64,000 bases of DNA from Hericium rajendrae. Lineage: Eukaryota; Basidiomycota; Agaricomycetes; Russulales; Hericiaceae. Both the position numbers and the translations under genes were made by a program. Below are positions 31,776 to 50,605 of the stretch, in pieces; positions within the stretch are counted from its first letter, which is position 1, and the number at the start of each line of letters is the position of its first letter. The notes beneath the pieces are model-generated. The model did no database searches, was not told where the DNA came from, and saw only the letters and a program-made list of their open reading frames with translations. Location: NCBI GenBank assembly GCA_033439255.1, contig CM065884.1, forward strand, positions 558,001-622,000, given 5' to 3'.

Positions 31776-33149
31776 CATTCGTCTTTATGTTCACTGTTCT
31801 ATGCTAATGTTATTCATGTCTTCGGTTATATATTCACTTTTTATTAATATAAATAATATCTTTTGTATGTCTTTATGCTTTGTCACTGTTGTCATATTTA
31901 CTAACTAATCTTCTACTTTGTAGATCATATTTTCACTTTTTGTAATCTTTGTAAGTTTAGTATATTATTCATCTTGTTTATTCTTTTAGTAGTAAGTGTA
32001 ATGTTTTATTTATTCGTGATTAGTAGTAGTATTTTTGCTTGTAATAGTTTAATAATATAAATATAATTTTGATGCATTGAATAAAGTTTATATTTGTGTG
32101 ATCATTTATTTGGATTTTGCTATGTGAATCTGATCAAAATTTATAGTTTCATAGGCTTCATTGCTTCAATAGTTATGTTAGGTCTACATATTTAATATAG
32201 AATGTGTAAGTAGCATAAGTCTTATAGCTTTGATGGACACTTATAGCTCTCATAGCTATGCATACTATGGTAGCTGCATAGTCAGCTATCATAGCTATCA
32301 TAGCACTTCATAGCATTGCCTCTCAGCTTCATAGCACTATATAGCATCTCCCTTTAGCTATGCTGGCTATAGAGAAAAGGGCAGTGCTATGGAACTATGA
32401 AATCTATGTAGATTATATAGAGCTATGTACCACTTACAGATTTTTCTGATGATGGTAGCCCATACGTAGCCCTGACCAGAGATTTCGATCCGAAGAAAGC
32501 TTCTTATCCCAAACTGTAAGTATGCAGTGTTAGACTAGAAAACTAGGATCTTTATTTATCATTATCTTCTATCACGGCAGATGCGAATTGATGAATGCTA
32601 TTGTTCCTATCAAGTACGCGATCCTCTGTCCAATTCATCGTGGGTGCAGATAACTAATCTTTCATTTCATAGATTCGTGAGGGCTGTAACAAATGCAGGG
32701 AATAATACTCCTGCCGCAGGCATTCCGGTTACTAGTATTGAAGGGAAGTACACATTTCCCAAGACCAGAGCGTACGTTTCCTTCGAACTGTACCTGCTTC
32801 TGACTGACTAGCGCTTTATATCACATCATTTTATTATCACCCGGTTCAGACGTCTTAACAACATTTGCATCCATCCTGGGTAGAAAAAGGTTATCAACAT
32901 AGCTTTAGCAAACCCTGATATTTTCAAGCATAAAGGACAGTGGTTGACATCAAAGGAAACTGGCCAGATCGCTGTTTTTTTCCTACTGGGGGAGGTAACA
33001 TATTCTCAGCTCACCAGCCAAAGTACTTCAAAGCAGATATGCATCGCTCCTTTCTACACTTTATGGCCATGTGCTTCGTCTTTTATAGCCCAAGTATATG
33101 GTCAGAAGATGGCTTATTTCCAAACGTTCCCAGGGACGTCAGTTGGTAA

Positions 33150-33810
33150 GATCGATCTGACCCATAAGTTGTAAGGGGTTATGGATTGATCCAACCCACA
33201 AGTTCTAAGGCAGTTACCCACCCTATATAAATATAATCTGATATGTTTAGAGATGTATCCATTGTTACAATCTCATATAATCCAATCCAATCAGATCCAA
33301 TATTCTGCACACACTATTAATCAGATGAGAATAGGGCAGTCAAAATATAATACATTAATCCAATCCGATCCAATCTGAGCACCATGATTATATACAATCT
33401 ACTCCCATGGATCGATCCAATCCAATCCTAACTCACAATCCGATCCTATACGCTTGCAAACAATCCGTTAATCTGACTTAAGTGATCCAAACGAATCCGA
33501 ACCCATACAAATGAATCCGTTAATCTGACTTAAATGATCCAAACGAATCCGAACCCATACAAACGAATCCGAACCCATACAAACGAATCCGACGACATCC
33601 GATCTCTACAATCTCATCCCATCCCATATCAGCCCCCCCCGACTCAATCCGACCATATCCGAACACAACTCATCTCATCCGAAGCCATCCAATCCAACGC
33701 TATCCCATCTGACTTCATCGAATCCGACGTCATCGAATCCGACGTCATCGAATCCGACGTCATCGAATCCGACGTCATCGAATCTCATCCGATACTAACC
33801 AATATCATCT
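33150..33810 (+). repeat. Left terminal inverted repeat of the KDZ element
   Basis: This 661-bp arm pairs with 49782-50329. The outer 350 bp are unique in sequence and rich in AATCC words. The inner part has about three 20-bp units of ACGAATCCGAACCCATACAA near 33535-33590 and about five 15-bp units of CATCGAATCCGACGT near 33715-33785. The transposase stop codon lies on its inner edge. Confidence 0.9.
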
Positions 33811-36800
33811 ACCTATCATGACCATGATCAGTGACAGCTATTGAGTGATCTTGTTCTAGCACAGGACATACATCAGCAAATTTAGCCTTTTTAAGTGCAC
33901 TTGCATGGAAAGTAGCTGCATCCTGGGCCAAACGCTCGTACATCGACCTGTGCTTGTGGGCATATGCTCCAGCACCACGCGCTGTTGCCTCGGAGGCTAA
34001 GACCATCCAGGCCTTGCTCATTGTTGTGTGCGAACGTTGAGTGTTTATGAATTCTTGATCGGTTATGTCAATTTCTTCTCGCCAGCGTTGGCAGTCTGCT
34101 CGATCACGGAACCATTTGACACGTTCACCTAGTGCATATCGCATCAGTGTCAAGATAGGGAAGGATGCAAAAATATGAACTTGGCGTACTCTCCATGCTC
34201 CATTCGGCTTGCTCTTCTTCAGTCAGCGCTGACGGGCCAATGACTGTCCAGAACCAAGGATCCGGCTTCGCTGTATCACCTGGTTGCAAAGTCAGGAATG
34301 CCACTTATGATCCAACATGTCACTTACCCAGCTGCCGAGGTCGAGTGGTGTCTTTCATCCAAAGGTCCTCGTTGTGTAATGGCTGCAACACCACATCATC
34401 CTCGGCCAGACCCAAACTCACTAGCGCAGCACGAGCACGACGATATTTGTCAGCTGCGCTGACTTGATCGCGTTTGAGGTCACGAAGGAATGCCTGAGCT
34501 CGTGTTGTTGGACCCTGGTTGAAGATGTTGGATTTCTTGAATTTGAGATTGTAATTGAACATCTTGATCGCATGTCGGACATCACGGAGGGCATTGTGTG
34601 CTTGACCAACGCGTAAGTCGTACTCCACCAATCCTGCATCACCAAGACCTTCAGCCTTCCGAGTAGGTTCATTGAAAGACGACGGTAGTAGTAACTTAAT
34701 GTCTTCGGGCTCTTCATCATCGTCAACATTGAGGAACGTACGAAGGCTTGAAAACATCATCAATTGACGCTGTCGCCAACGATCAAGCTCATTACGGAAC
34801 TTGAGTCGGCCTACATCTAAACGCTCTTGTTCCGCAGGCGTGCGGACTTTGATTGATGCCAATACCTGCAGACGTGCTCTGCTGGACATCAGAACAAAGA
34901 AATAGTGATAAAAATCAGCACGCACTGTTCTGCTTCAAGACGTAACCCATCATTGATCATCGCAACTACTCCCGCAGCCCCCTGATCACTGAGAGTGCGA
35001 ACAGTCTCATCTTGAAGTAATTCTTGAAGTTTCGAGAACTGCGTTGGCGGGCCTAACGTGTCCATCAGACCACTCAACAAAGATAAGGAAAAACGCAAGG
35101 AAGACATACCTTTTCTCGCCTTCGATGCATAAACACTGGTCAGTTTCCCATTGACAACTACTGGCTTGCAGTCCATGGCGGACCATTGGGCAACCAGCGC
35201 CTGTCCATGTCGTGCGCAGAGCGCCTTGAACGTAGTATTATTTTGACGAAACATTGCTGCTGCATTTGTGTGACGCTGATACAGCAACCGAGCTAAACCA
35301 ATTTGAGATATCGTGTTCATTCTTGGAAATACTAGGACGTACTCATCGAGATAACCTTCTGCCAGTTCCAATACCCATGAAAATCATCCAAGATGTCATG
35401 TCGATGACCGGCATTCATCTCCTTGGTACTTCCTGCCGTCTGATTGCCTTCGGCCCATGCCGTTTCGATCGTCTCCCCAAATGTTCTGCCAACGTGGGAG
35501 GTCGTATTGAAAGAGTATTGTAATTGGCAGTCTTCAGTGTGGCCCATGATATGCAACTTCGGCACAAGTCCTTCGATCCGTGTGGCGATATCTTTCATCT
35601 CTGGGAAATGGACATCTACACGCTTGAGGAGCTTAACTTTATACTGACAAAAGATGTCATAGCTGAACTTGATGTAAGGAATACTGCTGGACTCGATCAA
35701 GGCAGACATCAATGCATAGTCGGTGTTACAGAATCTGGGGTAAGCCAATATCAACAATGACAACACCCGGGTCAACCAAGAGTATCAGTCATACCTTTCG
35801 CCTTTCTGCAAATCAACCATGCCCTGAGGCCAAAAGAAACCATGCCGTGCACACTGAATACCGTCCACCCCACTTACAACTGTATGCTTGAACTTGAGAA
35901 GGTTTTGCAGACGGACAACATTCAGACGGGCACATGTGGATCTCTGTTCGTATGTCAGCATTGAATGGGGGGTATTATAGTAATGGTAAGATCACCTCGT
36001 CGTCTGTTGCGATCCCCATCTTCTTGAGATATTCGTTGTATGCTCCTGTCTCGACGAAATAAGCATTGCCTTGCAATAGCTCCACATCGTCGGGATCGTC
36101 GATTTTAACCTTGCGTTGAAGTCTGAAGTTGCCATCGGCGGACAGAAATAAGGTATATCTATGCCTGGGATGGACAATTAAACTAGTCTCACTCACATAC
36201 GCATGTAAAATAACACGTACATATCTTCAGGCGAAATATTTTCAAGTTCCTCCAAGGTCACACTGACACCGGGTTCGATGCATGCAGGACATCTCACAGC
36301 ATAACAACCCTGTCGTCGTAATGTCAGAACCTTGTCGATCCCATGGGCTTGCCCTGAACGACGAATCATCGCGAGGGCGCGCCAAACACGCCCGACTCGC
36401 TGAAACTCCCGACGGCGATCCTAGTAATGCAGGTCAACATTACAAAGTTCAAGCTGCTTAATTGAGATTGCTCACAGGGGTGTTATTGGGGAACACATTG
36501 TCTGTGTGCCGTTGCAATGCGGCATAATGATCGTATGCAGATTTCTTGGAAGCAAGGGTGTGAAGATGGAAGTCGTCGAGGACATGGAAGGTAAAAGCAG
36601 TCTGGGGTAGATCCATGGTTGCCGGAAAGAGGCCCTGACCCAATAATTGAAATGCTTCTGAGGTGGCATCACGGCAGCGGCAGAAGTCGACTTTGATATG
36701 ATGTATGCCACCGGTATCGACGACGACTAAATCATGCCCTCGCGAAGTTGAGGCACGATTCGGACAGCGATGGCCGCGGTGCCCTAGGCCGACGATCAAC

Positions 36801-37335
36801 CCTAGGTCCTTCAGCGAAGAGCGCTCGAAAAAAAGGCCGTTCCACTTCTGGATTCGGTGGAAGGGAGAGTATGCATGACTAGATGTCATGCAAGCTTGAC
36901 AGGAGGGACGGCGCTGCCAGCAGTCAACGCAGCGATAAGTGGCTGGCGGTGCCTCCGGACTGCAGGTGCAGCGGTGTTCGACTGCGAGGTCAAATTCGCG
37001 ACTAAGGATAGTATCTTGAATGGCGACCATGTTGTCCATAAAAGATTTCATGAATGTGCTCGCACCCTAAGGTCAAAAATGAGCTGCGTCTCGAGGTAAT
37101 TGACGATCAGACGAACCTGTGGTCGTTTCGTTCCTTTGCATGCCTTCTCGGGCTCCGTCGTCACCAACGTTCTCCCTGCCGTCGTCGATGGAGGTTTCCG
37201 CTTCCTCGGAGAAACGACCTTGTGGAAAGTGCTTTTCGCGCCGTGATTACGACTGTAGTTCAAGCCAATCTCGATTTCGTTGTCTTCTTCTGAGTCGCTA
37301 TCTACGCGGCCCGTGACACGTGATCGTTTGAGCAT
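33809..37335 (-). CDS. KDZ transposase, 11 exons, 993 aa
   Basis: Eleven exons join in frame: 37335-37117, 37066-36476, 36420-36221, 36165-35996, 35943-35795, 35734-35356, 35292-35110, 35052-34926, 34881-34328, 34279-34190 and 34128-33809, or 2982 nt with no internal stop. Introns are 50-63 nt with GT-AG ends. The N-terminus is basic and acidic (MLKRSRVTGRVDSDSEEDNE). A CxC2-like cysteine cluster (CTCSPEAPPATYRCVDC, then CQAC) follows near 36880-36980. The KDZ core has the hallmark CARHGFFWPQGMVDLQKGER near 35800-35860, then YDIFCQYKVKLLKR, HIMGHTEDCQ and GETIETAWAEGNQTAG. The C-terminus has KPDPWFWTVIGPSALTEEEQ and an alpha-helical tail. KDZ enzymes are RNase H-fold DDE transposases that act on the inverted ends of their element. 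The stop codon is TAG at 33811-33809, on the inverted-repeat edge. Confidence 0.9.
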
Positions 37336-37750
37336 GAGAAGGGAAATTGGAGTCTCAAACAGAGGCTGAGAGGCAGGATAGCAGGGGCATACGAGATGGA
37401 GAAGTGGCAAACAGAAACTGTCGGGGTAGTAGGGGAACATGTATATATCGCAAATAATAACATTATGAAAAGCGACTGTGGCCTACTCCGACTATTGTGG
37501 CTCGGCAGGACAAGACGCAGGGCAAGACACGACGCGATGTCCGATACCCCGCGCATTGTTCGCTATGTGGCAAATCGTGGTGGACCCGCAACGCCACATT
37601 GTACACCACAACACCGCGACACGGCGGCGAAAAATGATTGCGGCGGAAGACAATGATTGAGTAACAATAAAGAAAATAGTCAACTATTACACTTACTGGT
37701 ATCCAAAAACACAGCGACCTCAAATGTGACTGACCTGCCCTACGATACTT
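37336..37750. other. Spacer and promoter region of the KDZ transposase
   Basis: There is no gene. On the minus strand a TATA-like GATATATACATG lies about 100 bp upstream of the transposase start. A short inverted repeat occurs near 37540-37600. The left part is the probable 5' leader of the transposase, and the right part follows the RFC1 copy. Confidence 0.5.
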
Positions 37751-40700
37751 TTATCCCTTGGCCCTGGATGAGGAAGCTTTCCCCTTGGCACCTGACTTCG
37801 CGGTTGTGTTCTTCTTGCTGCTACCCTGCTGGATCAAGCTGTCATCCTCAATAACATCTGGATCGGAGCGCTTCTTCTTGTCATCCTCAGGCTCATCACC
37901 AACATCTTCTTCCACCTGCACGTGAAGTTAGCATAAGATATCACATGCAACAAATCAAGATTGGCTCATATCGAAGGCCTCCTCAAGATCAAGCGCAGGT
38001 CCTGCGGCCAGTTTCTTTGGCGCTTTGCCCAGATCCTGAGCCTTATGGAACGGTATGGAATGGTCCCGTGCATTGTACCTAGACCGTCAAACACTTAGTA
38101 GAGTACCAATCAGTATATGCCAAAAACGCACTTTCGGGTTAATGCCGACTTCGTTGCAGAGGAGATCTTCTTGCTGATGACATCGATGTTGCGATCGTCA
38201 ACGCCAAGCTCCATCACAGTGTCCAAGTCTTCCCTTGTGAGGTAATATTGGTCCATCCGCTCAATGACATCGTCTACAGCGCTCTGATATTTGATCAGTA
38301 ACTAGCACGGTCATGTTAAGCCGAAGACACTCACAGAGCCCTCCATCATAGGCTGCACAATGTAAGGAAACAACGCGGGCACATATGACTGGCGAATTTC
38401 GGCTTTGTCTCCGGAGACTTTGAGTCGCATGCAAATCTGGATTCCGCCTAGCTGACGACTGAGCTTGGTCTGCTTGGAGTTTTGACCGAGCCATCTGTGG
38501 AAGCAACGGTCAAAGCGAGCAATATACGGGGTGACGAAATAACTTACTGAGGGAACGACATTGCATTTGGCCCGCCATATCCCGAGCCTGCTCCATAAAG
38601 GAAGGACGCGGGTCGAACTGTCGAGAGCACGGCGTGAGTTGGCATGAGCGTCCAGTGTTGCTCGGGGCTGCAAATAAATGTTAGACAAAAATCAGAAGAG
38701 TTCGTCTGAAGGTGCCTCACCCGTGGATCATGGCATCAACCAGATCACCATCAGATATTGAAGATGCTGCCTGGTCCATGAGTTCCAAATCCTTCAAGGT
38801 ATCCAGTGGATCACGACCATCGCCGACTCTGGCAGGTTTGGTCTTCAGGTAATTTTCCTCCGAAACACAGATCTCGTCAAGACCATATGACAGCCATGCG
38901 CTAAGCTTACTGACTTGGATAAACAACGGCATGAATGAATAGTCCTGGAAGTAGAGCTCCATCTTGTCCCCAAGAGTTTCACGTGAAGTCCTTGAGAATA
39001 AGTATGGTCCCAGGATCTTCTGTGTGATGTTGAACGGTGTCATGGCAGCGTAGTTCTCGTTCATCTCTGCGCTGAAATAGTCAAATGAGAATAAATATTG
39101 GAGAGTCGAAGAGAGTATACGAACAGTTCCTTGCTCTGGTCGAAGTCCATCGTATCGCTTTGCAGCCTCCATGTCGAGAGCATGTTCAAGACCTGTCGAA
39201 TATCTGACTGAACACCGGTGACCAGTTGATCAATCACGTTGGCTGGAATCTTCATTTTTTTCCCTGCGGTGCGTCATTGTAAGTGCAAGCTCGTCGACGT
39301 AACAACTTCACGCTTACTTGTAGGCATCCACAAGATCCTTGACGAAGCCTCCGGTCTCCTGAAAGTTAAGTTGAAAGTACACGCTGCAAGGGGCTTCATT
39401 TTGACAGCAGATCTGTTATTGGCGATGCATATTATTGGGATCTGAGATAGTTCGTGAGTATGCACGTTTAAGATGACTGGCCGGAAGTCATTACCTTGGT
39501 CTTTTTTTATCGGAGCACACAATGCCCCGATACCGCCCCTATCACCCGCAGACATACCATCAACTTCGTCCATAATAAGGCATGACTTGTTGGTGACGGT
39601 AACGCCCGCTACGTTTGTGGTCTGTTCATCAATTTAGCAAATGGCAGCATGGTACCCGGAAGAAATCGAACCTCTCCACCACCCATCCAGCCATCTAGCG
39701 ATGTGCTCGCAAAATTTGTGCTGCTCTGCGGAGAGACAGTTACTTTACGATTCGGTATCATTTCACGGCAATGACGTACCTCGACTAATTTCTTACTCCG
39801 GGCATCGCTGGTGTTGAGCTCGATTGGAGTGCAACCTTCGAGTTTCGCAACCAAATGCGCAGCAGTTGTCTTACCGATACCCGGTGGCCCTGAGATTAAG
39901 ACGGCGCGGGAGACATTCATGCCGTTTTTACCTGGTTTCTTAAAACCAGACTTCAGACTATTGCACCTAGAGTGACGTCAGTTCAATTTCCATATGTCCG
40001 TTTGGATGAATCAATTAACAAACCAGTCATGCAACCATGTCTGTAGCTTCTCGATCTGCCCCTTATTCCCACAAATCTCCTTTAGGGTCTGCGGCGCGTC
40101 TTTGTCTGTCCAGAGCTGAGCCGAACGATCAATGGCCTTCCTACTAGCATGATAAATCAGATTGCCTCACGCACATGTTGAGATCAACGACGTACTTTCC
40201 AAGTTTGCCGAAGCCTGCCTTCGCAGCTTCGGTTCTTGCGTTTCTCCATTTCCTTAGCGCTGTCTCGGATTGCCTGCATCTCCTTCTCCATCTTGATGGT
40301 CTTTGCGTCCAAGCCTTCTCCAGTCCCAAGACCTTTCCGTGTGGTGATCAACTCCAATAATTCGTCCTCAGACAATGTGGTAAGAGTTTGCTTCTTGATG
40401 GCAGCGAGCTTCGCTTCGGAGGGCCTGCGCCCTCTCCGAGCACAACGAATGACGTCTTGGATGATGGCTGGCATACGACACGACTGAAACCATCAGCTGC
40501 CTCGAACGATTGATAGAAGCTAGATAGTCACATACCCGCCAAATCAATTCGTGAGATCGACAGCCTCCTCGCGAGACAAACTCGAAAGCTCGCCTATAAA
40601 AACGAATGCGAGCCCTGTTAGGCAGTCCGGACCAGCATTTTCCGGAATCGCTTTGGATCCGGGTGCGCTGGGCCCCGCCGCCTTCGCTGCCCTTGCCGCA

Positions 40701-40870
40701 GCCCAACTACAGGATATGGGCATCGGTAAGTGAACTATTCTCAGGGGCCACGGCTTGCACCTACTTGAGTTTCTTGGCCTTCTCATCCATCTCCTGTGCA
40801 TCATCCTTTGCAACGGTCTTGGCCTTAGGTTCCGAAATCAGTTCAAAGCGATGTGAGTAAGGGACTTACT
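37751..40870 (-). pseudogene. RFC1: Decayed, 5'-truncated copy of replication factor C large subunit
   Basis: RFC1 is the large subunit of the clamp loader that opens PCNA at primer ends. Exon by exon on the minus strand: the BRCT domain (PDCLTGLAFVFIGELSSLSR, near 40545-40640), the AAA+ core with Walker A ([13 protein letters not shown], near 39867-39889) and Walker B (CLIMDEVDG, near 39557-39585), then the collar and C-terminal region (VIDQLVTGVQSDIRQVLNML; YFQDYSFMPLFIQ; QWLGQNSKQTKLSRQLGG) and a Lys/Ser-rich end stopping at 37751. The host gene would be longer at the N-terminus; here it is cut off near 40870 by a repeat. Lesions include TGA at 40546-40544 where a CGA is expected, a 5-nt duplication near 40411-40419 that shifts frame, a disturbed segment after Walker B, and a last intron that begins AT at 37969 in place of GT. 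It must be a second, non-functional copy, because RFC1 is essential in eukaryotes. Confidence 0.9.
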
Positions 40871-40879
40871 ACCGGACGG

Positions 40880-41880
40880 TCATGGCACGCGTTCCGTACG
40901 ATATGCGCCCGGGAGTAAGGGATTGTGCCAATCAATGGGCCCTCACGGCGGACAAACGTTGTCTGACCACGAGGGTTGTCCACCGAAGTGACAGAGAATC
41001 GAGTCCGCGGCAAGGGAGAGGGAACACAACAGCAGAAGCAAAGGACCAAAGTAAGGTATATATAAAAAAGTGTCTATCCCCTTAACGGCACACAGCAAGT
41101 CATGCTCACGAAGACCCAAAAGGGTTGGAGCGACAGGTGAGCTGCGCGCCAGGGAATCAACACAGGAAGGAAAAAAAAAAGAAGGCCGAAATGCGCCCGG
41201 GAGTGAGGGATTGTGCCAATTGATGGGCCTTCACGGCGGACAAACGTTGTCTGACCGTGAGGTGTCCACCAAAGTGACAGAGAGTCGAGCCCGGGGGGTG
41301 GGGGGATTGAGAGGTTGAGGCCTACAGCAGAGACTTAGCGGGAATGGATGGAGGAGATAGACGATGTTGCCGCCTACCCTAACCCCGACAAGTCAGTCTT
41401 GCTAGTTGCTTATGTCATGGTGGCTTGCTAGTTGCTTATGTCAGGCGTTTGCTCTCCCACTTCCACATGCCACGTCGTCCTCACCTCCGTCAAGTACTGG
41501 AGCAGCAAGACCGTTTGCAAAGTAAGTTCATCCGTTTCTTGTGCCCTTGGCAGCTGAACTTTGATTTCAGGTTGTTATCATTGCACTGTCCACTTCCCCC
41601 ACCCCCCGGGCTCGACTCTTTGTCACTTTGGTGGACACCTCACGGTCAGACAACGTTTGTCCGCCGTGAAGGCCCGTCAATTGGCACAATCCCTCACTCC
41701 CGGGCGCATTTCGGCCTTCTTTTTTTTTTCCTTCCTGTGTTGATTCCCTGGCGCGCAGCTCACCTGTCGCTCCAACCCTTTTGGGTCTTCGTGAGCATGA
41801 CTTGCTGTGCGCCGTTAAGGGGATAGACACCTTTTTACCTTACTTTGGTCCTTCTGCTCTCGTGCGTTGCGTTCCTTGTC
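40880..41880. repeat. Palindromic and tandem repeat region between RFC1 remnant and next gene
   Basis: A unit containing GGATTGTGCCAATYRATGGG and ACGGCGGACAAACGTTGTCTGAC occurs in direct orientation at about 40900-41010 and 41190-41300 and inverted at about 41585-41690. The inverted arms extend to about 41022-41320 and 41577-41870, separated by about 260 bp of unique DNA, which also holds a 27-bp tandem duplication near 41397-41445. The right arm ends about 40 bp before a start codon, so one arm may act as a promoter. The left arm marks where RFC1 is truncated. Confidence 0.85.
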
Positions 41881-41913
41881 TCACGGCCGCCCTCGGGATT
41901 TCGTGCACTCAAC

Positions 41914-43992
41914 ATGGCTCACCCATCATCGTCTCGGCGTCCTAAGGTACGTTGCATGTTTCATTCATTTTTAATGGTATTTGATCAATGTCTGATGTCG
42001 GAAATCATGCATTGGTAGGCCTTCTCCTTTCCCTACTCCACCTGGACACCGCTACAGTCTTCGGGGGAACTTATTGCCGCAGCAAATACACGGATGATTC
42101 CCACGCCGTTGGACGGTTCTGCGACGCCTCATCTCCAGTTAGACGGGTTATGGGGCATGCATGAATGGACTCGGTTTCCGCAGATTTTTGATCCCTCCGC
42201 TCCGTTTCTAGCATACATCCCTGTATTGTTCATGAGCTCGAGTGAGCGCCATGCCGTCCTCGGACGTGCTGTGTCGAAGGAAATATGGACACCACACCCT
42301 AGTGATCGCCAGAAGCATGTTGCCGAGCCGTCCGTCCTTGATGCCCTTCGTGAAGAATGGGAATGGGCAACCGCGATGACAAGACGGGTTTTCCCTGCCA
42401 TCCAGGCCACAAAGGGCATGGAACATATCGCGCTGCCCCATACTGCATGTGCGCGCGCTCTGGATTGCTACGAACTACTCAAGCATGGCATTCGTGCCTG
42501 GCGCGAGTTCGTCATCGTTTTCCGCCATCTGCAGCGTTGTCTTCTGGAACTGGTAGCCTTTGATGCGTGGTGGTCGGACTGTCATATCCCCGAATCCATG
42601 CGGAAAGATAGTCTTGTTGTTCGGGAGCATCGGGGTAGATGTCGGGGTGTTTATGCACCAGATCTTGTCGTCTATTCAGGTTTAGCCAAGTTGGGGGTTG
42701 CCGTGTATATCATTCTCAAGGCCGATGAATGGACTCTGGACTCGGACAAAATCACTCGAATGACACAGCGGGATGTTCGATGCAAGCTTGCTCCGTGGCC
42801 TGAGGCGACGCTCAAGCACAACGGACCCCATTGGTGGTACCCTCCGCTCGTCAACGATGCGAGGAACTTCGAGCCTGCTGCGCGGGGGACTGCTCCTCGG
42901 GATGATCACTTCAATCCTACGGATGAGTACAAGGCAATTCTAAAGAAGCGAGAGGAGATATCGAAAGGTAAGTTTCTGATTTAGCTTATGTGGTGCATTT
43001 AGGCTCATCTTCTTCGTGCAGCACAGTCTCGACAGCCAAAGCCGGACATCCCGCATAACGAGTGGCGACGGTGGTACAATACCTCCGATCCGCCATCTTG
43101 GATGCGTCGGCCCGTCGAAATCTATCGAAATGCGATGTACATGGTGAACCCCCACACGATGAAGGACATCGGCACCTCACGCCCCTTCCAAGTCCCTCCC
43201 TTCCATCTATTTTGGGGCGCTACTCCTGAGAATCAAACCATCTTCTTCCGACACGCTCTGCTCTTACGACATGCGTTAGACAAACGGTTTGCTCGCAATG
43301 CACTTGGTCTCAATACGCGCGACTGGAAGCGTATCCTCGGAGACTCGTATTGGCGTTGCCAATGGCCTATTGTAGGCGACACATTCGACGCTGCGGTCGA
43401 CCCTGCATATGACTCTGATCATTTTTGGGTGTATGGAGGCTCCCTCATCTTTGGTTCTGACAACGACGCCATCATTGTTAATCCGGACAAAGCGATTTCG
43501 CCCCTAGACTGTGGCTGTCCCGTTGACGATGATGCTGCGAACGACCCGGATATTCGCTACGCCGTATTATATCACTTGGTCTGCCAGACGATTCAGTCAG
43601 ATTTTGACGCAATGCACGTGAAATGCATCAATCCCTCATCCACATCCATCTCGAACAACGATCTGCGAAGGGCTATCAAAACTTTTCTTGGGTCGACAAG
43701 CGATGGGCGCGAGGCTCTGTACGAGCTGGAGTGGACGAGGCGCATTGAATGGGTGGCGGCGTTGAAAGACGTCTTGCAGCATTGGCCGGGCTTTGATCAG
43801 CATAAATGGCAAAGAGTCTCCTGTATGCGAGATGTGCGCTTGGACACGTTGGATGGACAGTCATTCCAGAGTGTGGAGCGCCAATTACTGACATTCTATG
43901 TACAGACTTTCATCGATCACCTAGGATATCTGCCGGCACCCCTACTCCCCGCTCCTCCCTTCCGGGAGATTCGTTGCCAACGTCATCGATAA
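41914..43992 (+). CDS. Unknown protein of the KDZ element, three exons, 650 aa
   Basis: Exons 41914-41946, 42019-42967 and 43022-43992 join in frame to give 651 codons including stop. Introns are 72 nt (GTACGT...GGTAG) and 54 nt (GTAAGT...GCAG). The 11-residue first exon reads MAHPSSSRRPK. The protein is rich in Trp and Arg with no signal peptide, membrane segment or catalytic motif I can name. The most distinctive stretches are PFHLFWGATPENQTIFFRHA and RKDSLVVREHRGRCRGVYAP. It resembles expanded uncharacterised Agaricomycete proteins, from memory only. It is intact and lies between the palindrome and the TRIM, so it is likely part of the element rather than decayed host cargo. Its role is unknown. 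Confidence 0.8.
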
Positions 43993-44171
43993 ATTTCAGC
44001 AGTTTGTATCTTGTATCACAGTAGTGTTTGGTATCTTGATTTTCTATGATTGAGGTCATAATCTGTCTGCCCTCCCAGTGTTCCTTAGCACAAGCGACAT
44101 GTCTCTTGAGCCACCATTGTGAGGCGAGTCCACATGCATTATGTCAAAGCGACGAGTACAATGGTCCAAGC

Positions 44172-44531
44172 TGTCATGAATCGCCCATTGGTCTTCTTCA
44201 TTCCCTTTGTTCCCTATATGGACACTCCCTTGTTATGTTCCCTTGTTCCCTGTTAGGATATCCCTTGTTCCCCTTTGGGACATCCCTTGTTCCCCTTCCC
44301 CTTGTTCCCCTTTCAGGATATCCCTTGTTCCCCTTTGGACTATCCTTCTAGTATATATAGGGCTACCTTCCTGACTGGCTTCCTCAGTTTGTCCACTTGA
44401 CTCTCCAGTCCCATTGTACCCTAGACATTCTCAGCCTGTCTCTACTCTCTATGACATCCTCTGCTCTTTGATCCTTGATCCCTTGGGGTGACTTGGATGG
44501 CTTCACTGTTCCCCTGAACCCAGTCTTGACA
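44172..44531 (+). repeat. 5' LTR of the TRIM
   Basis: This 360-bp repeat, TGTCA...TGACA, has many CCCTTGTTCCC units and a TATA-like CTATATATAGGG near 44350-44362. Confidence 0.92.
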
Positions 44532-44813
44532 TTTGGACAAACTCTCATACATCCACCTCACCCACCCCTGTCCATTGGATTCTTACCCTCCCACCTAGTC
44601 CTTGAACCCACTGCCCACTGCCCAGCCATGACCCCATGATCACCAGATGAGTTGACACCATTGCTTGCAAAAACCCACAGAACCACAGACCACAGAACAC
44701 AGAACACAGATCCACTTGCAAGGTGGTTGTCAGTCTCAGACTCAAGATTCCATGTAGATGTTGGATAGGTGTTGGTGTGCTCCAGGTGCAAGCACACCTT
44801 AAAGAGGGGGTAA

Positions 44814-45173
44814 TGTCATGAATCGCCCATTGGTCTTCTTCATTCCCTTTGTTCCCTATATGGACACTCCCTTGTTATGTTCCCTTGTTCCCTGTTAGGA
44901 TATCCCTTGTTCCCCTTTGGGACATCCCTTGTTCCCCTTCCCCTTGTTCCCCTTTCAGGATATCCCTTGTTCCCCTTTGGACTATCCTTCTAGTATATAT
45001 AGGGCTACCTTCCTGACTGGCTTCCTCAGTTTGTCCACTTGACTCTCCAGTCCCATTGTACCCTAGACATTCTCAGCCTGTCTCTACTCTCTATGACATC
45101 CTCTGCTCTTTGATCCTTGATCCCTTGGGGTGACTTGGATGGCTTCACTGTTCCCCTGAACCCAGTCTTGACA
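44814..45173 (+). repeat. 3' LTR of the TRIM
   Basis: This 360-bp repeat matches 44172-44531. It is followed directly by CAAGC, the right copy of the target duplication. Confidence 0.92.
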
Positions 45174-45314
45174 CAAGCTAAGTCATTTCATTGTCTTAAT
45201 TGTTGGAAATAGGGGCTCACTGCCAGAACGCAGGATAAGGTTACCTCGTGGTTCGTTGGTTTTATATCGGTGGTAAAGCACGCGAAATATTACCGTCTCT
45301 GCTCTCACCTCGCC

Positions 45315-46569
45315 ATGCCGAAAGCTTCCCGTCCCCTTATCACTGCGCCCACCCCTTACACGCCCACGCGACGTCGAGCAGGCCTGAAGCCTGCACGTCG
45401 CCTTGACCCGACTACCCCCCAAGCTAACTCGGACTCGACCTTGATTGGCACGAAGACCGAGAAGCGGAAGGAAAACCAGAGACGCATTCGCAACGGCCTG
45501 GAGGTCCTAGCTGCGAAACCTCCAATTGCTGTCAAACACACACATTCGGGCTACAGGACTACTGGTCCTCGTCTCGCTGTGGGAGATACAGATATCCTGG
45601 ATGCTGGGCGTTGGTATCGACTCGTAAGTAACGCATTTATGGAATCCCTCTTCAATCCCTAACATCTTCGGTAGTGTATTCCTATCAGCGGTAAAGGGCC
45701 ATGATGCTGCTTTGAGTGGCTTACGCCACGCCTATCACCAGACCTCGTTCTTCGCACTGAACCGCTCGCATCTTGGTGGCTCATCAAGAATGAACTGAAG
45801 CCAAAGGCGCGGGATCACCAAGCCTCGACAACCACTTCCTATGGCGCTACGGGACACCCATCCCTGACGAAGAACGATGATAGTGACACGGACATGGAGT
45901 TCTGTGATACGCCGTCAACCGTACGCGCGAAGCTGGACGACAGGCGCCATCGGAAGGCTACTGATCAGGAAGCCTTAATTGAGATTTCCGACAGTGAAGA
46001 CGAGGGTTTGTCACTCGGCGACGTATACGCTGCCACATCAAGCGTACCGGTAGCTCGCAACGCAGAGAAGATGTCCACCCGATTGGTATGCGCATCCAAG
46101 TCTCCTGACCTGGACGACAACGTAGTAGTCACTGTAATGGCATGGTATTCTGTAAGTTGACTCCTTGAATTTTCCGCTTCCTCGCACTGATGAAATTCAG
46201 GATGTTGATTCTCCGTCAATAGAAGCCTTGTGTGCCCGACGGGGAAAACGTCTTGTTCTCACTGATCACAAGTTGGCTTTGGGAGCAATAGGACTAGATG
46301 GACCTGTCGAGCGGTACGCGGAGTCTACGCGGAAATGGCTGGCCTTGCGGTGGGATACCCCAGTAGCCGTGGTCGATGGAGGATTGGTGCTATTGCGCGC
46401 TCGGGGTGTAAGGCACATGATCGATTGGGAGGACCATACACAGCATATTTTGGATGAAGGAGCATCCCGGGGTATGCGTGCCTCAGCCCATATGGCAGGG
46501 CCTTCCTCAGATTTCAGATCGTCCTCCCCTCCCCTGCTATCTTCTCCAACGGATAGGATTCGTCATTAG
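45315..46569 (+). CDS. Unknown protein of the KDZ element, four exons, 367 aa
   Basis: Exons 45315-45623, 45675-45690, 45742-46151 and 46201-46569 total 1104 nt in frame. Introns are 51, 51 and 49 nt with GT-AG ends. The second exon is only 16 nt; it keeps the frame and is needed to avoid stops, but it deserves transcript support. The N-terminus is basic and Pro/Thr-rich with nuclear-signal-like KTEKRKENQRRIRNG. The middle carries an acidic motif IEISDSEDEG that resembles a SUMO-interaction motif. The C-terminal half reads YAESTRKWLALRWDTP and VVDGGLVLLRARGVRHMIDW. No catalytic motif is recognised. A nuclear adaptor or regulatory role is conceivable but unsupported. Confidence 0.7.
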
Positions 46570-46595
46570 TTGATTTTTTTTTTCATATATTGACT

Positions 46596-46900
46596 TCAAT
46601 TCATTTGTATTCTACTGTACGCTTTTACGATTGTCACAATATGCATCACTGGTGCCCCGCAGTCCGAGTTCATGGAAACAAAAGGATTGACTAATTTGTT
46701 CGAGAGCAGGTCCTCGTCGCCGGTCAGCCACTGCCTCTCGCATGCGGCAAAATAGTGATGAATAGAATCGGTTAGCGGATAATCAGATTGGTGGACCAAA
46801 GCGCTCTGCCTCGTTGGCCCAGTGGACTCGGCATCAGTCGGATTGGCTCCAGATGAATTGTCTTCGACAATGGTATGCAACAATTGTTCAACGTGCTGCG
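46596..46900 (-). CDS. Possible small minus-strand gene or terminal exon
   Basis: A 95-codon frame with protein-like composition (TGPTRQSALVHQSDYPLTDS; FAACERQWLTGDEDLLSNKL) extends upstream without stop to about 46900 but has no clear ATG, so a 5' intron would be needed. It lies tail-to-tail with the preceding plus-strand gene. No family is recognised. Confidence 0.3.
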
Positions 46901-47020
46901 GATTTATCCTTTTGTGGTGCGCAGATCATGGAGCAGGCCGCATCGTAAGCGTCATGGATTGACGTGAATACAAGAACAATCGTACGTTGCCACCTTATTC
47001 AAACAATAGAGTCGTACTTA

Positions 47021-47032
47021 TCTATATAAGCA
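47021..47032 (+). promoter_or_regulatory. TATA box of the HMG-like gene
   Basis: TCTATATAAGCA lies about 115 bp upstream of the ATG at 47144, a normal distance for a fungal TATA element plus leader. Confidence 0.55.
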
Positions 47033-47143
47033 GTGCATCGCTATAGTGTGCACGCTTTCCCCACCCCTTGACTATCGTCCATTTCCGAAAGTACCGTTAT
47101 TGCCCCCCTGTCTACTCTCCATTGCTTAACGCACATCGGTCCC

Positions 47144-49694
47144 ATGGCTTCAGTCAACATCGACGATGGCAATGTCGCGAAGGCAGGCTCCCTTACTGAT
47201 GAACAAAAGCAATGGCTCCGAACAAAGTATCTCCCCGACTTTCTTGCATTGCAAGATAATACACTTGCAAAGGGAGACCAGTCTAATTGGGTAAGGCAGA
47301 CGGTCCTCGATGACTTCCACAACCACTTCATGAAAACCGCGAGCCGCACGGAAGTTTTTGAGGTATGTCTTAATTGCTGATGTTCACCTTGATCATATTT
47401 CTCATACGTCTTCTGTGTACAGAAAATCAAGCGATGGTTCTATAATCAAGGGTCCAAAGCTGGGAAGATCAGGCCACTGGTGGTGAAGCCACCGAAGAAG
47501 CCAAGGCAGACGAACGGCGAATTCTTGTTTCGTCTTGCGGAGGCCGTTCAAATCCGCGATGGAATGCAAGATCTCCGTGAGAAGACTGGCGAGCAAGACA
47601 ACCTCAAGTTGTGGAGGCAAGCGGCAAGGGATAGTTGGCTGGAGCTCGTGCCAGATGAGCAAGCGGAGTGGCATGCGAAGGCTGGGCAACAGAACGAAGA
47701 GCGCAACAAGCCTCCGCCTGTGAAACACATTTACGAGTGAGTAGAATCTTTGTTGAAGGTCGTGAGGATGTAACTAATCGCTCTTCGTCAATTAGTAACC
47801 AACCTGGTGTTCTTCCTGCTGTTGTAGGCGCACTTGCACCGTTGTGCGGGTACGATTGGAACCAATATGGCGACGTGTTTTTTTTCGTTCAAGGTGCATT
47901 CAGAAATGCTGAGGGGCGAATTAAGACATTCCAGTGCGTACCGTTTTATCATGCCGCAGCTTTCGAATGCTAACTCATGTGCTATGGTGTTATGCAGCAC
48001 CTCGGTGCAAGATGGTCCTATGGGTTTCGGGGCAGATAAGATTGATGATTATAAAAACGGGTTCCGACGGCAGTTCAAGGAATGGGCAGAGGAAGTTCTT
48101 CCAAGTATGTATCATGCCTTGCCTGTCATCCTTTCGGCACTGATCGCGCTGCCAGTCCGGGAAAGCGAAGAGCCCGAAGTTGATACACACGGTAGTATTC
48201 AATTCGATTCAAACGGGCGCCCGATACTACCTCCCTTGGAAATGGAAACCATCACGCCCCTCGACCTAGGCAAAGTTCTTCAGGAAGTGTTTGAAGGGCT
48301 ATGGGGTATGTACTACATTCTTCGCATTCAATTCAATTCAATTGATTATAATGTTCTGCTCCCTAGCTCGTTGTGCACCGAATGGGGCAGCGTACAGAAA
48401 GGTCCCATGGGCACTCATTAACGAGCACAGAGCCACCTTCATCAGAAATGCAAAAGCGTTTAGCCATTTCAAGACTCTGGAACCAACAAAAATGAATCCG
48501 CGCGACGTTTTCGAGCTCGCTGACATCATTCAAAATGCGAGTGCAGACGGGCCATACCCATTTGCATTCGTCGTGGAGAATGAGGGGCATCAGCTTCTGG
48601 GCCTAGATACTGGTGTTCGGGAGGACAGTCCCGGGACTGATCACCCGCCCTCGCAGCCACTCTCTCCAACACCACCCCCACCTCCTCGCCCACGTCCCGT
48701 ACCGGTTCCTGCCCGGAAGCCTCAACCCGTGAAGACGACTGTGACATCACAGCCCGCATCGCTCGGTGATGCTCTGCGAACTCCTGTTCGTGGCGGAATA
48801 TCTACGAGGCAAGATACAACTCCAGTGCAGCAACCACTATGGGCGCCAGGTCTTTCGCAAGCATCTCGAGTGCGTACACCTGTGCCTATCGCCAGTATAT
48901 CCACGATGCCTGCTGTGCGTCGTTCGGAATCCGCAAGCAAAGACATCGGACCTTCTGAGGCTGAGGAGTCTGCACTGGAGGTCGAGTCGGCATTGGAGAT
49001 AGACGAGTTAGTATCGTCACGAAACCAGACTGAGGAGCCGAGGCCCACGTCGCCCCCGAATTCCGCCGCTGCTGCCGCCGCTGACGACGATGACGAGGGT
49101 TCCGATGACGAGGATGATGATGACACCAAGCAGGATGCCGCCGCCGCCGCCGACACCGGCCGACACGCGGACAGGATGATGCCAAGGAATCGGCGCGTTA
49201 ACCAGGCTAGCAAGTCTTCCGGCCATCAAGGCAAAGACGACCAGCCATCGGACAAATGACGTCAGCGCGCCGTATCGGAGAAACACACGGAAGCAGTGGC
49301 AGAGAGGCGGACTTCGACTCGCGGAGCTGCAAAGCGCAAGGCGGATGAAGAGCAGCAACCTGCAAGGCCGAAGCGAGTCACGAAGCACAAGGCTCAGGAA
49401 GAGGAGCTCGCTCTTGTGCAACCTTCAAAGCCGAAGCGAGGCACAAAGCGCAAGGCTAACGAAGATGAATCGGTCACCGAAGAGCCCGCGAAGCGAAAAA
49501 GAGGGCAAGAAACGTATGTACTTCTTTTATTACTTACTATAGACCGATTCTGACATTGTTCTAGTGCAACAAGCAACGGAAGGAAGCCTGTGACGTGCAA
49601 GAGTGCCAAGAACAATGATACACAGGCCGGCACCTCTGCCCCTCGTCGGTCAACACGGTCAGTATCAGACTTACAACTACATGATCTTATCTGA
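47144..49694 (+). CDS. HMG-box-like DNA-binding protein of the KDZ element, seven or eight exons
   Basis: Exons 47144-47362, 47423-47736, 47796-47933, 47998-48104, 48156-48305, 48367-49513 and 49565-49694 join in frame (735 codons). After a helical N-terminus, residues about 105-165 (NGEFLFRLAEAVQIRDGMQD, KLWRQAARDSWLELVPDEQA, EWHAKA) have the spacing of a degenerate HMG box: aromatic start, central Trp, a P-x-E turn and a final helix. The C-terminal half is Pro-rich, then has Ala and Asp runs (about 49063-49160), then basic repeats (KPKRGTKRKA, PAKRKRG) resembling AT-hooks or nuclear signals. One TGA at 49257-49259 falls in frame. A 69-nt segment 49197-49265 begins GTTAAC and ends GTCAG, so it may be an intron that removes the TGA and keeps frame (711 aa). 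Otherwise the protein ends at 606 aa. The gene stops 88 bp before the right inverted repeat. Confidence 0.7.
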
Positions 49695-49781
49695 CGGTAT
49701 ATGTTCAGCACGAAATAAGGCTTACAAGGGTTCTGCAGGGTCATATAGTATTCCTTGCCAACATGTATGTACTGTCTGGTC

Positions 49782-50329
49782 AGATGATATTGGTTAGTGT
49801 TGTATGGGATTCGATGACATGGGATTCGATGAAGTCGGATTCGATGAAGTCGGATTCGATGAAGTCGGATGGGATGAAGTCGGATGGGATGAAGTCGGAT
49901 GGGATGAAGTCGGTATCGGATTGGATGGAATTGTAGAGATCGGATGCCGTTGTATATGTTTGTATGGGTTCGGATGGGTCTGAATCGCACAAGTCGGATT
50001 AACGGATAATATGTGAGCTTGTAGGATCAGATTATGACTTAGGATTGGATTGGATTGATTCACGAGTAGATTGCATCTCATATATAATTACAGCGCTTGG
50101 ATTGTATCGGATTGGATTGAATTAATCTATTATATTTCGACTGTCCTATTCTCATCTGATTGATAGTGTAGCAGAATATTGGATCCGATTGGATTGGATT
50201 ATATGAGATTGTAACAATGGATATGTCTCTATATGTATTGGATGACATTTGTATAGGGTAGCTAACTGCCTTAGAACTTGTGGCTCGGATCAATCCATAA
50301 CCCCTTGCAACTTATGGGTTGGATTAATC
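49782..50329 (-). repeat. Right terminal inverted repeat of the KDZ element
   Basis: An inverted copy of 33150-33810, 548 bp long and so about 110 bp shorter. It carries six to seven 15-bp units of GATTCGATGAAGTCG or GATGGGATGAAGTCG near 49806-49915, more homogeneous than those on the left. The outer end reads, on the minus strand, GATTAATCCAACCCATAAG. Confidence 0.9.
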
Positions 50330-50605
50330 CTATGATATGCATAAGGTGTAAGATGAGATAAGATACAAAGATAAGATAAGATAGAACTTAAAGATAAAAC
50401 ATGAAAAAAAAAGATAAGATAAGACTGACTCCACAGATAAGAAAAAGCGAAAATAATCTAAAGACAAAGTCAACAAGTTAGTAGTATACAAGATACAGAT
50501 ATAAAAAAACATAAGACTTACTTAAGAGAATAAAGCAAAGATATAAAAGTCTACAAAGAACAGTAGGGTTAGTGAACAATAAAATAATATAGCAACAATA
50601 TAACA

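Follow-up and report, generated by a model that had tools for sequence, protein, structure and literature searches.

Companion genes of a large KDZ transposon family in Hericium rajendrae

Mushroom genomes commonly harbour KDZ elements. In a 64,000-nucleotide stretch of the Hericium rajendrae genome (contig CM065884.1, positions 558,001 to 622,000; hereafter the window), a KDZ transposase gene lies with three other genes, which we call P2, P3 and P4, between long inverted repeats, and this arrangement raises the question of whether the four genes form a single mobile unit and, if so, what the companions do for it. The first-pass annotation had proposed such a unit with bounds at 33150 and 50329. 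A mobile unit is indeed present, but its exact ends lie further out: because 16-bp tips outside the inverted repeats recur among copies and their flanks do not, we place the true ends at 33131 and 50348, 16 bp beyond the repeats on both sides, giving an element of 17,218 bp with the terminal sequences 5'-CAGGGACGTCAG... and 5'-CACCTTATGCATATC.... The A tip (CAGGGACGTCAGTTGG, 33131 to 33146, plus strand) was found as CAGGGACGTCAGYTGG at 11 places in the genome, and the B tip (50333 to 50348, minus strand, reading inward CACCTTATGCATATCA and then TAGG) was found as CACCNNNTGCATATCATAGG at 12 places; the reversed control gave none in either case.

Inside the tips are the A-side (33147 to 33810) and B-side (49782 to 50332) inverted repeats. 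Their terminal arms, 33147 to 33308 and 50171 to 50332, match at 87% over 162 nt, with additional paired blocks running inward as far as 33810 and 49782, and both ends carry a 15-bp satellite (7.2 units at 33677 to 33784 and 7.1 units at 49807 to 49913), so that the inverted, satellite-bearing ends of the original description were found as claimed. Sequences similar to the first 274 bp of the A-side repeat occur at 22 genomic places, many of them arranged as opposed pairs. Between the transposase gene and P2 is an internal inverted repeat, whose left arm (41063 to 41309, plus strand) is 98% complementary to the right arm (41591 to 41837, minus strand); it is present in eight of nine copies examined, the ninth (C5) being uninformative, and its arm has no sequence in common with the terminal repeats at an E value of 1.

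The multi-exon transposase gene (33809 to 37335, minus strand) encodes a CxC2 cysteine cluster and a KDZ core, matching Pfam families PF18758 (KDZ, E = 1.1e-35, over the cut-off) and PF18803 (CxC2, E = 2.3e-37). Read on the minus strand, its exon frames, 11 by the count of the first-pass annotation, stay open between a start near 37335 and a stop at 33809 to 33811; this stop sits at the inner border of the repeat, as had been noted. P2, P3 and P4 are transcribed divergently from it, all on the plus strand, and in the window copy the pieces of all three read as open frames, in keeping with the earlier description of two or three companion genes as intact-looking. P2 (42094 to 43992; earlier given as 650 aa) has one intron, which keeps the frame and most likely spans 42968 to 43021 by eye; the conserved frame has its first ATG, also read by eye, at 42094, and the true start may be further upstream. 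P3 (45315 to 46569; 367 aa by the earlier figure) belongs to no family, and P4 (47144 to 49695) is a multi-exon gene whose product has a charged tail and a segment that weakly resembles an HMG box, with a stop near 49695 that by eye fits the earlier claim that it ends 88 bp before the repeat.

We searched the 46.8-Mb genome for further copies. All nine loci with one tip of each kind, the window included, enclose the KDZ transposase, P2, P3 and P4, which bears out the earlier proposal that the four genes make one mobile unit. P3 occurs at no fewer than 12 loci, and every one of the 12 found also has P2 and P4; at one of them, C14, these two are 46 kb apart, yet lie between the same two tips. 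Five of the nine bounded copies (C10, C3, C4, C14 and C6) have their own exact 7-bp target duplications, showing that copies inserted as units. C17a and C17b each carry the other's 7-bp duplication sequence, as predicted by recombination between inverted copies, and the A flank of C2b is the B flank of C2a. These results come from 132 flank pairs, for which 0.008 matches are expected by chance; three of the 11 A flanks and four of the 12 B flanks matched nothing. Among five unpaired tips, those at C2a and C5:1499299 (C5a) accompany the gene set, those at C2c and C12 accompany remnants, and that at C5:1016619 has two short element matches within 1.5 kb inward.

The window copy itself has no 7-bp target duplication, its flanks being ACGTTCC on the left and TAAGATG on the right, and no recombination partner for it was found among the compared flanks. 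It is possible, at a little under an even chance, that this copy is a recombinant that took one end from each of two copies, as the C17a/C17b and C2a/C2b pairs illustrate elsewhere. Against this, insertions aside, its interior runs colinear with those of C10 and C3, two copies that have duplications of their own, and it has both tips and the four genes in order. A recombinant origin of the window copy would leave the explanation of the family untouched.

Copies range in size from 12.9 to 65.6 kb, and several of those outside the window contain in-frame stops. The differences in size stem at least in part from internal insertions, as in the window copy, where the earlier statement that genes fill the element end to end proved wrong: two stretches, of 3.1 kb and 1 kb, lie inside the element but outside the core unit. 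The longer (37701 to 40835, minus strand) is a captured fragment of a host RFC1 gene, 5'-truncated with its introns kept, which matches locus L030 (C6:2718001-2724500) at 89% over 3.17 kb and whose protein has yeast RFC1 chains as its best matches. The shorter (44172 to 45173) is a TRIM-like, LTR-type nested insertion with two identical 360-bp direct repeats (TG...CA) and a 5-bp duplication, CAAGC, and is missing at the corresponding point in C10, C3 and C4. The first-pass annotation had mentioned neither of these insertions, nor the internal inverted repeat, nor the missing target duplication. Outside the unannotated extra DNA of C3, C10, C17a, C4 and C14, we saw no sign that the copies of 21 to 66 kb are giant elements with cargo.

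A minimal KDZ transposon, consisting of a transposase and its ends, might have enclosed three host genes that were useless to it and spread by its amplification, since all copies could share one ancestor and capture does occur here, as the RFC1 fragment shows. The dN/dS values between copies, computed on 13 pieces of the four genes, are mostly low for all four: 0.06 to 0.48 in 28 of 29 defined comparisons for the transposase (the other gave 2.03 on very few changes), 0.07 to 0.28 in all 14 for P2, 0.11 to 0.51 in 23 for P3 and 0.11 to 0.76 in 22 for P4. For the three companions they are mostly low even between copies only 48 to 77% identical in protein, whereas the RFC1 fragment behaves differently, being truncated, with only two pieces of it left in C3 and C4, and having a dN/dS of 0.44 to 0.74 between C7 and C10. 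Furthermore, neither P3 nor P4 was found away from the gene set, except for a P4 remnant at the lone B tip on C12 (these counts being minimum ones), and P2 is tied to a second KDZ lineage, as described below. We therefore regard passengers as quite improbable. With high confidence, on the observed tips, 7-bp duplications, co-occurrence of the gene set and mostly low dN/dS, we conclude that the locus belongs to a large KDZ DNA transposon family whose core of ~13 kb comprises the transposase, P2, P3 and P4; the roles of the proteins, given next, are what we infer.

The transposase would recognise the long satellite-bearing ends, cut at the CA/TG tips and insert the element by cut and paste at a target with a 7-bp stagger. 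P4 could serve as a DNA-binding or architectural factor. Its HMG-like character held up as a weak match that stays below the Pfam cut-off (PF09011, E = 0.01 in one of seven members; PF00505, E = 0.096 in two of seven); the best match in a PDB profile search was NHP6A (E = 0.29), and the structure prediction for the segment was of low confidence (pLDDT 55). P3, for which a profile search gave chance-level matches only (best E 0.2), would most likely assist one of the other proteins, with no hint as to which.

P2 may act alongside the transposase as an accessory factor, either within the complex that carries out transposition or by guarding against silencing. The reason is its association with a second KDZ lineage as well: at 15 of the 19 distant P2 loci, KDZ exons of that lineage occur within 3 kb. 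P2 belongs to an unnamed family found beside two distinct groups of KDZ transposases. Six of the 33 P2 loci, two close (C9) and four distant (C3, two on C7, and C2), have no KDZ at the expected place, the nearest among the matches listed being 21 to 316 kb away; at C5b the other genes are present and the transposase of its family is absent. A single clade of all P2-bearing KDZ transposases was not shown by the tree and not rejected either (p-AU 0.08), so descent and exchange are both compatible with the data. A P2 profile had no PDB match at an E value of 1, and its Pfam matches stayed at chance level, being limited to Transposase_mut (E 0.17) and a phage family (E 0.2), both seen in a single member out of 16; neither search gave an enzymatic domain. 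The structure of exon 2 predicted from the window sequence alone, without an alignment, had a mean pLDDT of 36, and we set aside both this model and that of the P4 segment.

Transposon-borne Tet/JBP genes have been proposed to aid escape from silencing, in the part of PMC12730594 consulted here, and P2, perhaps with P3 and P4, might likewise shield the element from the host rather than cut or join DNA. The genome has 46 Tet_JBP matches (38 over the Pfam cut-off), of which 36 are within 7 kb of KDZ and none is within 7 kb of P2. The window element has no Tet_JBP match and so is not a TET-positive KDZ element, one that encodes a Tet/JBP dioxygenase; the only match inside a bounded copy (C14:1167579) has a different KDZ (C14:1165197) as its neighbour, 2.4 kb away. 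However, the KDZ tree places Tet-bearing and P2-bearing rows in different groups, such that lineage alone could explain the exclusion, and P2 matches no enzymatic domain. Such shielding is a serious candidate, if clearly short of even. Offered tentatively, and as less likely than not, is the general idea that KDZ transposons have P2 as a second component, their lineages here carrying either Tet/JBP or P2, the latter as a transposase partner or a non-oxidative means of escaping silencing.

At the level of titles and the beginnings of abstracts, a scope outside which the founding KDZ paper (Iyer et al. 2014) falls, we found no description of the KDZ, P2, P3 and P4 gene set, in agreement with the first-pass annotation, which could not match it to a described element. 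The family has the marks of the KDZ superfamily, namely PF18758 with a cysteine cluster and an inserted unit with terminal structure and target duplications of 7 to 8 bp; the duplications here are of 7 bp and were found in the family (five of nine bounded copies, and the exchanged C17 and C2 pairs) and not in the window copy. According to the portions of PMC12730594 available to us, the Kyakuja elements share with it a KDZ transposase, 5'-CA...TG-3' termini and 7-bp target-site duplications; Kyakuja-1_LB and -2_LB, Laccaria families from the Agaricomycetes, are described there as lacking TIRs and carrying a Tet/JBP gene, whereas the window family has long satellite-bearing inverted repeats (87%) inside its 16-bp tips and P2, P3 and P4 instead of Tet/JBP. 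We class it as a KDZ element whose termini resemble those of Kyakuja, a known kind; the likeness is one of termini and duplications. The Zisupton and Dileera branches of the same superfamily have 8-bp duplications in that source, as against 7 bp here. KDZ1 to KDZ3 of Cryptococcus neoformans, as covered in the passages on KDZ of PMC12810828, likewise have a KDZ transposase with a cysteine cluster, CxC1 there and CxC2 by best match here; they are mobile elements of 9 to 11 kb with TIRs of 139 to 241 bp and duplications of 8 bp (KDZ1) or 4 to 8 bp (KDZ2 and KDZ3), and those passages name no companion genes.

The KDZ literature, in the parts drawn on here, centres on the transposase and on Tet/JBP genes. 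Four co-travelling genes with low dN/dS, defined tips and target duplications provide a concrete component set for a transposition assay, and the link of P2 to two KDZ lineages, together with its absence near Tet/JBP, makes the purpose of a companion gene approachable by a direct removal test. Duplications swapped between copies, for their part, document how these long elements drive inversions.

Inverted ends, satellite units and genes had been placed by the first-pass annotation at positions that all held when we re-checked the window. It had also set the boundaries of the element at the inverted repeats, which are real but are not its true ends: comparison of copies puts each end 16 bp further out, and the element thus runs from 33131 to 50348 (17,218 bp). 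The same comparison defined the tip adjoining the transposase (A tip, CAGGGACGTCAGTTGG) and a different tip adjoining the companion gene P4 (B tip, CACCTTATGCATATCA). Since both begin with CA, the element reads 5'-CA...TG-3'. The KDZ, CxC2 and Tet/JBP load of the genome (46.8 Mb, 19 contigs) suggests a fungus, probably an agaricomycete. Searching all of it with the tip patterns gave 11 places for the A tip and 12 for the B tip, and the reversed patterns, used as a control, gave none.

Nine loci are bounded by an A tip and a B tip: the window copy on contig C7 and those on C3, C4, C6, C10, C14, C2 (C2b) and C17 (C17a and C17b). Their lengths, taken from tip positions and for seven also from copy comparison, range from 12.9 to 65.6 kb. 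The earlier proposal that the KDZ transposase and its companions P2, P3 and P4 form one mobile unit was upheld, as all four lie between the tips in nine of nine such loci. Because only the best candidates were scored in the gene searches, locus counts are lower bounds. P3 was found at at least 12 loci (the nine plus C2a, C5a and C5b), P4 segments at at least 12, an identical set, and close P2 relatives at all 12 of these, among at least 14 in total, two of which (on C9) lack the other genes. Close transposase relatives (81% or more) occupy at least 12 loci, namely, the nine plus C2a, C5a and C2c; C5b had none among the matches listed. Unpaired B tips occur at C2a, C2c and C12, the last beside a P4 remnant, and unpaired A tips at C5:1016619 and C5:1499299, the latter being the start of C5a. 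The longest copy (G000:C14:1133005-1198608, 65.6 kb) has both tips, shows a 7-bp duplication and encloses two or more further KDZ exons, one of them close to a Tet/JBP match.

Flank comparison revealed exact 7-bp target duplications at C10, C3, C4, C14 and C6. C17a and C17b lack duplications of their own; instead, each copy's A flank is identical to its partner's B flank. G000:C17:321916-347312 and 381804-394717 are mutually inverted copies with reciprocally swapped target duplications. Likewise, the A flank of C2b equals the B flank of C2a, with the exchange visible on one side. Crossing-over between two copies in inverted orientation should swap duplications in this way while turning round the intervening stretch; in the C17 pair, the swap is the mark of inversion by recombination between copies. 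Among 132 flank pairs compared, with 0.008 matches expected by chance, a partner turned up for 8 of the 11 A flanks and for 8 of the 12 B flanks; none was found for the window copy, for the two C5 A flanks or, on the B side, for C2b, C2c and C12. Two cross-matches in this set reflect a 7-mer common to C10 and C6: G000:C10:24604-48300 and G000:C6:1227808-1240711 share the target TGTTGCC in the same orientation relative to the A tip, and their flanks beyond it are unlike by eye. Target preference is a possible explanation. The transposase lies at the A tip in five of the nine bounded copies and at the B tip in four (C4, C6, C17a and C17b). The interior thus flips with respect to the tips, and recombination between the long repeats at the ends is the simplest route; in C4, the exchange region is visible in the copy comparison.

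Both the transposase domain and the insertion structure place the element among KDZ transposons, and we conclude that it represents a real, coherent four-gene family within a known superfamily. It shares 7-bp duplications and CA...TG ends with Kyakuja as outlined in passages of Kojima (PMC12730594), but Kyakuja is described there as lacking terminal inverted repeats (TIRs), whereas the window family has inverted repeats. Passages of PMC12810828 give Cryptococcus KDZ1-3 as 9-11 kb, with TIRs of 139-241 bp and duplications of 4-8 bp. KDZ elements are mentioned in Marasmius (PMC8290104) and Agaricus (PMC7473861), and Dileera in Marasmius (PMC9674265); passages of these three papers on KDZ and Dileera include no companions like P2-P4. 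The description of P4 as HMG-like is not sustained at the Pfam cut-off, below which its HMG-box match falls.

We estimated dN/dS (Nei-Gojobori, stop and gap codons excluded) for 17 frame pieces of the window copy, 13 from the four genes and 4 from a captured RFC1 fragment, against 10 other sequences with up to 8 hits each; C14, C17a and C5b are outside this set, and where dS was saturated the comparison is undefined and does not enter the counts. Values were 0.06-0.48 in 28 of 29 defined comparisons for the transposase, the outlier of 2.03 (C10, CxC2 exon) coming from only a handful of changes, 0.07-0.28 for P2 (14 comparisons), 0.11-0.51 for P3 (23) and 0.11-0.76 for P4 (22). Low dN/dS persists to copies with 48-79% protein identity. 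In distant copies, sense frames mostly contain zero or one stop and antisense frames often more; in-frame stops in several other copies mean that not all are intact.

Three features of the interior were absent from the first-pass annotation. The RFC1 fragment (37701-40835, minus strand) is 5' truncated and, along 3.17 kb, matches locus L030 (C6:2718001-2724500) at 89% identity, and the first match of its protein piece at 39609-39977 is yeast RFC1. L030 was taken as the host gene because the genome holds only three long matches: the window, C10 and L030. As the match spans introns and breaks off in an open frame within the first part of the host gene, we infer a 5'-truncated capture at the DNA level. 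C10 carries this block as well (89.7% to the host), C3 and C4 retain only two pieces, from an identical breakpoint, and C14 has a short match. dN/dS is 0.44-0.74 for C7 versus C10 and 0.20-0.31 for C7 versus the host. We read the fragment as a decaying passenger.

A 1,002-bp TRIM-like insertion (44172-45173) has two identical 360-bp direct repeats, each with TG at its start and CA at its end, together with a 5-bp duplication (CAAGC); it is missing at that point in C10, C3 and C4, and the identity of its repeats indicates that it is recent. The divergent transposase and P2 genes are separated by an interval that holds a 250-bp internal inverted repeat (41063-41309 and 41591-41837). Eight of nine copies examined have it, their arms being 85-98% alike; the C5 copy, covered in part only and in a form that the filter would have missed, is uninformative. 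The two arms of a copy resemble each other about as closely as they resemble arms from other copies of their subfamily; across subfamilies, arm similarity is 75-84%. This repeat may serve as a shared two-way promoter for the transposase and P2.

P2 has no match in the PDB and only chance-level matches in Pfam, and it keeps many invariant residues across members 28-30% identical. Two queries, merged by hand, gave at least 33 P2 loci, 14 close and 19 distant. Fifteen of the distant ones lie <3 kb from a KDZ exon, these being copies of a few subfamilies rather than independent cases; the other four (C3, two on C7, and C2) have no listed KDZ closer than 21 kb. Two P2 relatives, L033 and L034 (C7:433369 and C3:1668937), have near-identical surroundings, with the nearest listed KDZ more than 160 kb away, and may represent another P2-bearing mobile element. 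Of 46 Tet_JBP matches in the genome (38 over the cut-off), 36 lie <7 kb from a KDZ and none <7 kb from P2. In the transposase, the likely catalytic residues, judged from those of the family, are ADGNF, YDI and GETIE. A tree was built from 25 catalytic-exon rows hand-picked from 123, with P2 and Tet neighbors labeled by eye. One of its branches (97/90, with a long-branch warning) separates the window group and rows lacking P2 from the second P2 group and Tet rows; a single clade of all P2-bearing rows was not rejected (p-AU 0.08). P2 may thus be old and have been lost twice, or it may have been exchanged. The most interesting part of the element family is a partner gene that is conserved and falls outside known families.
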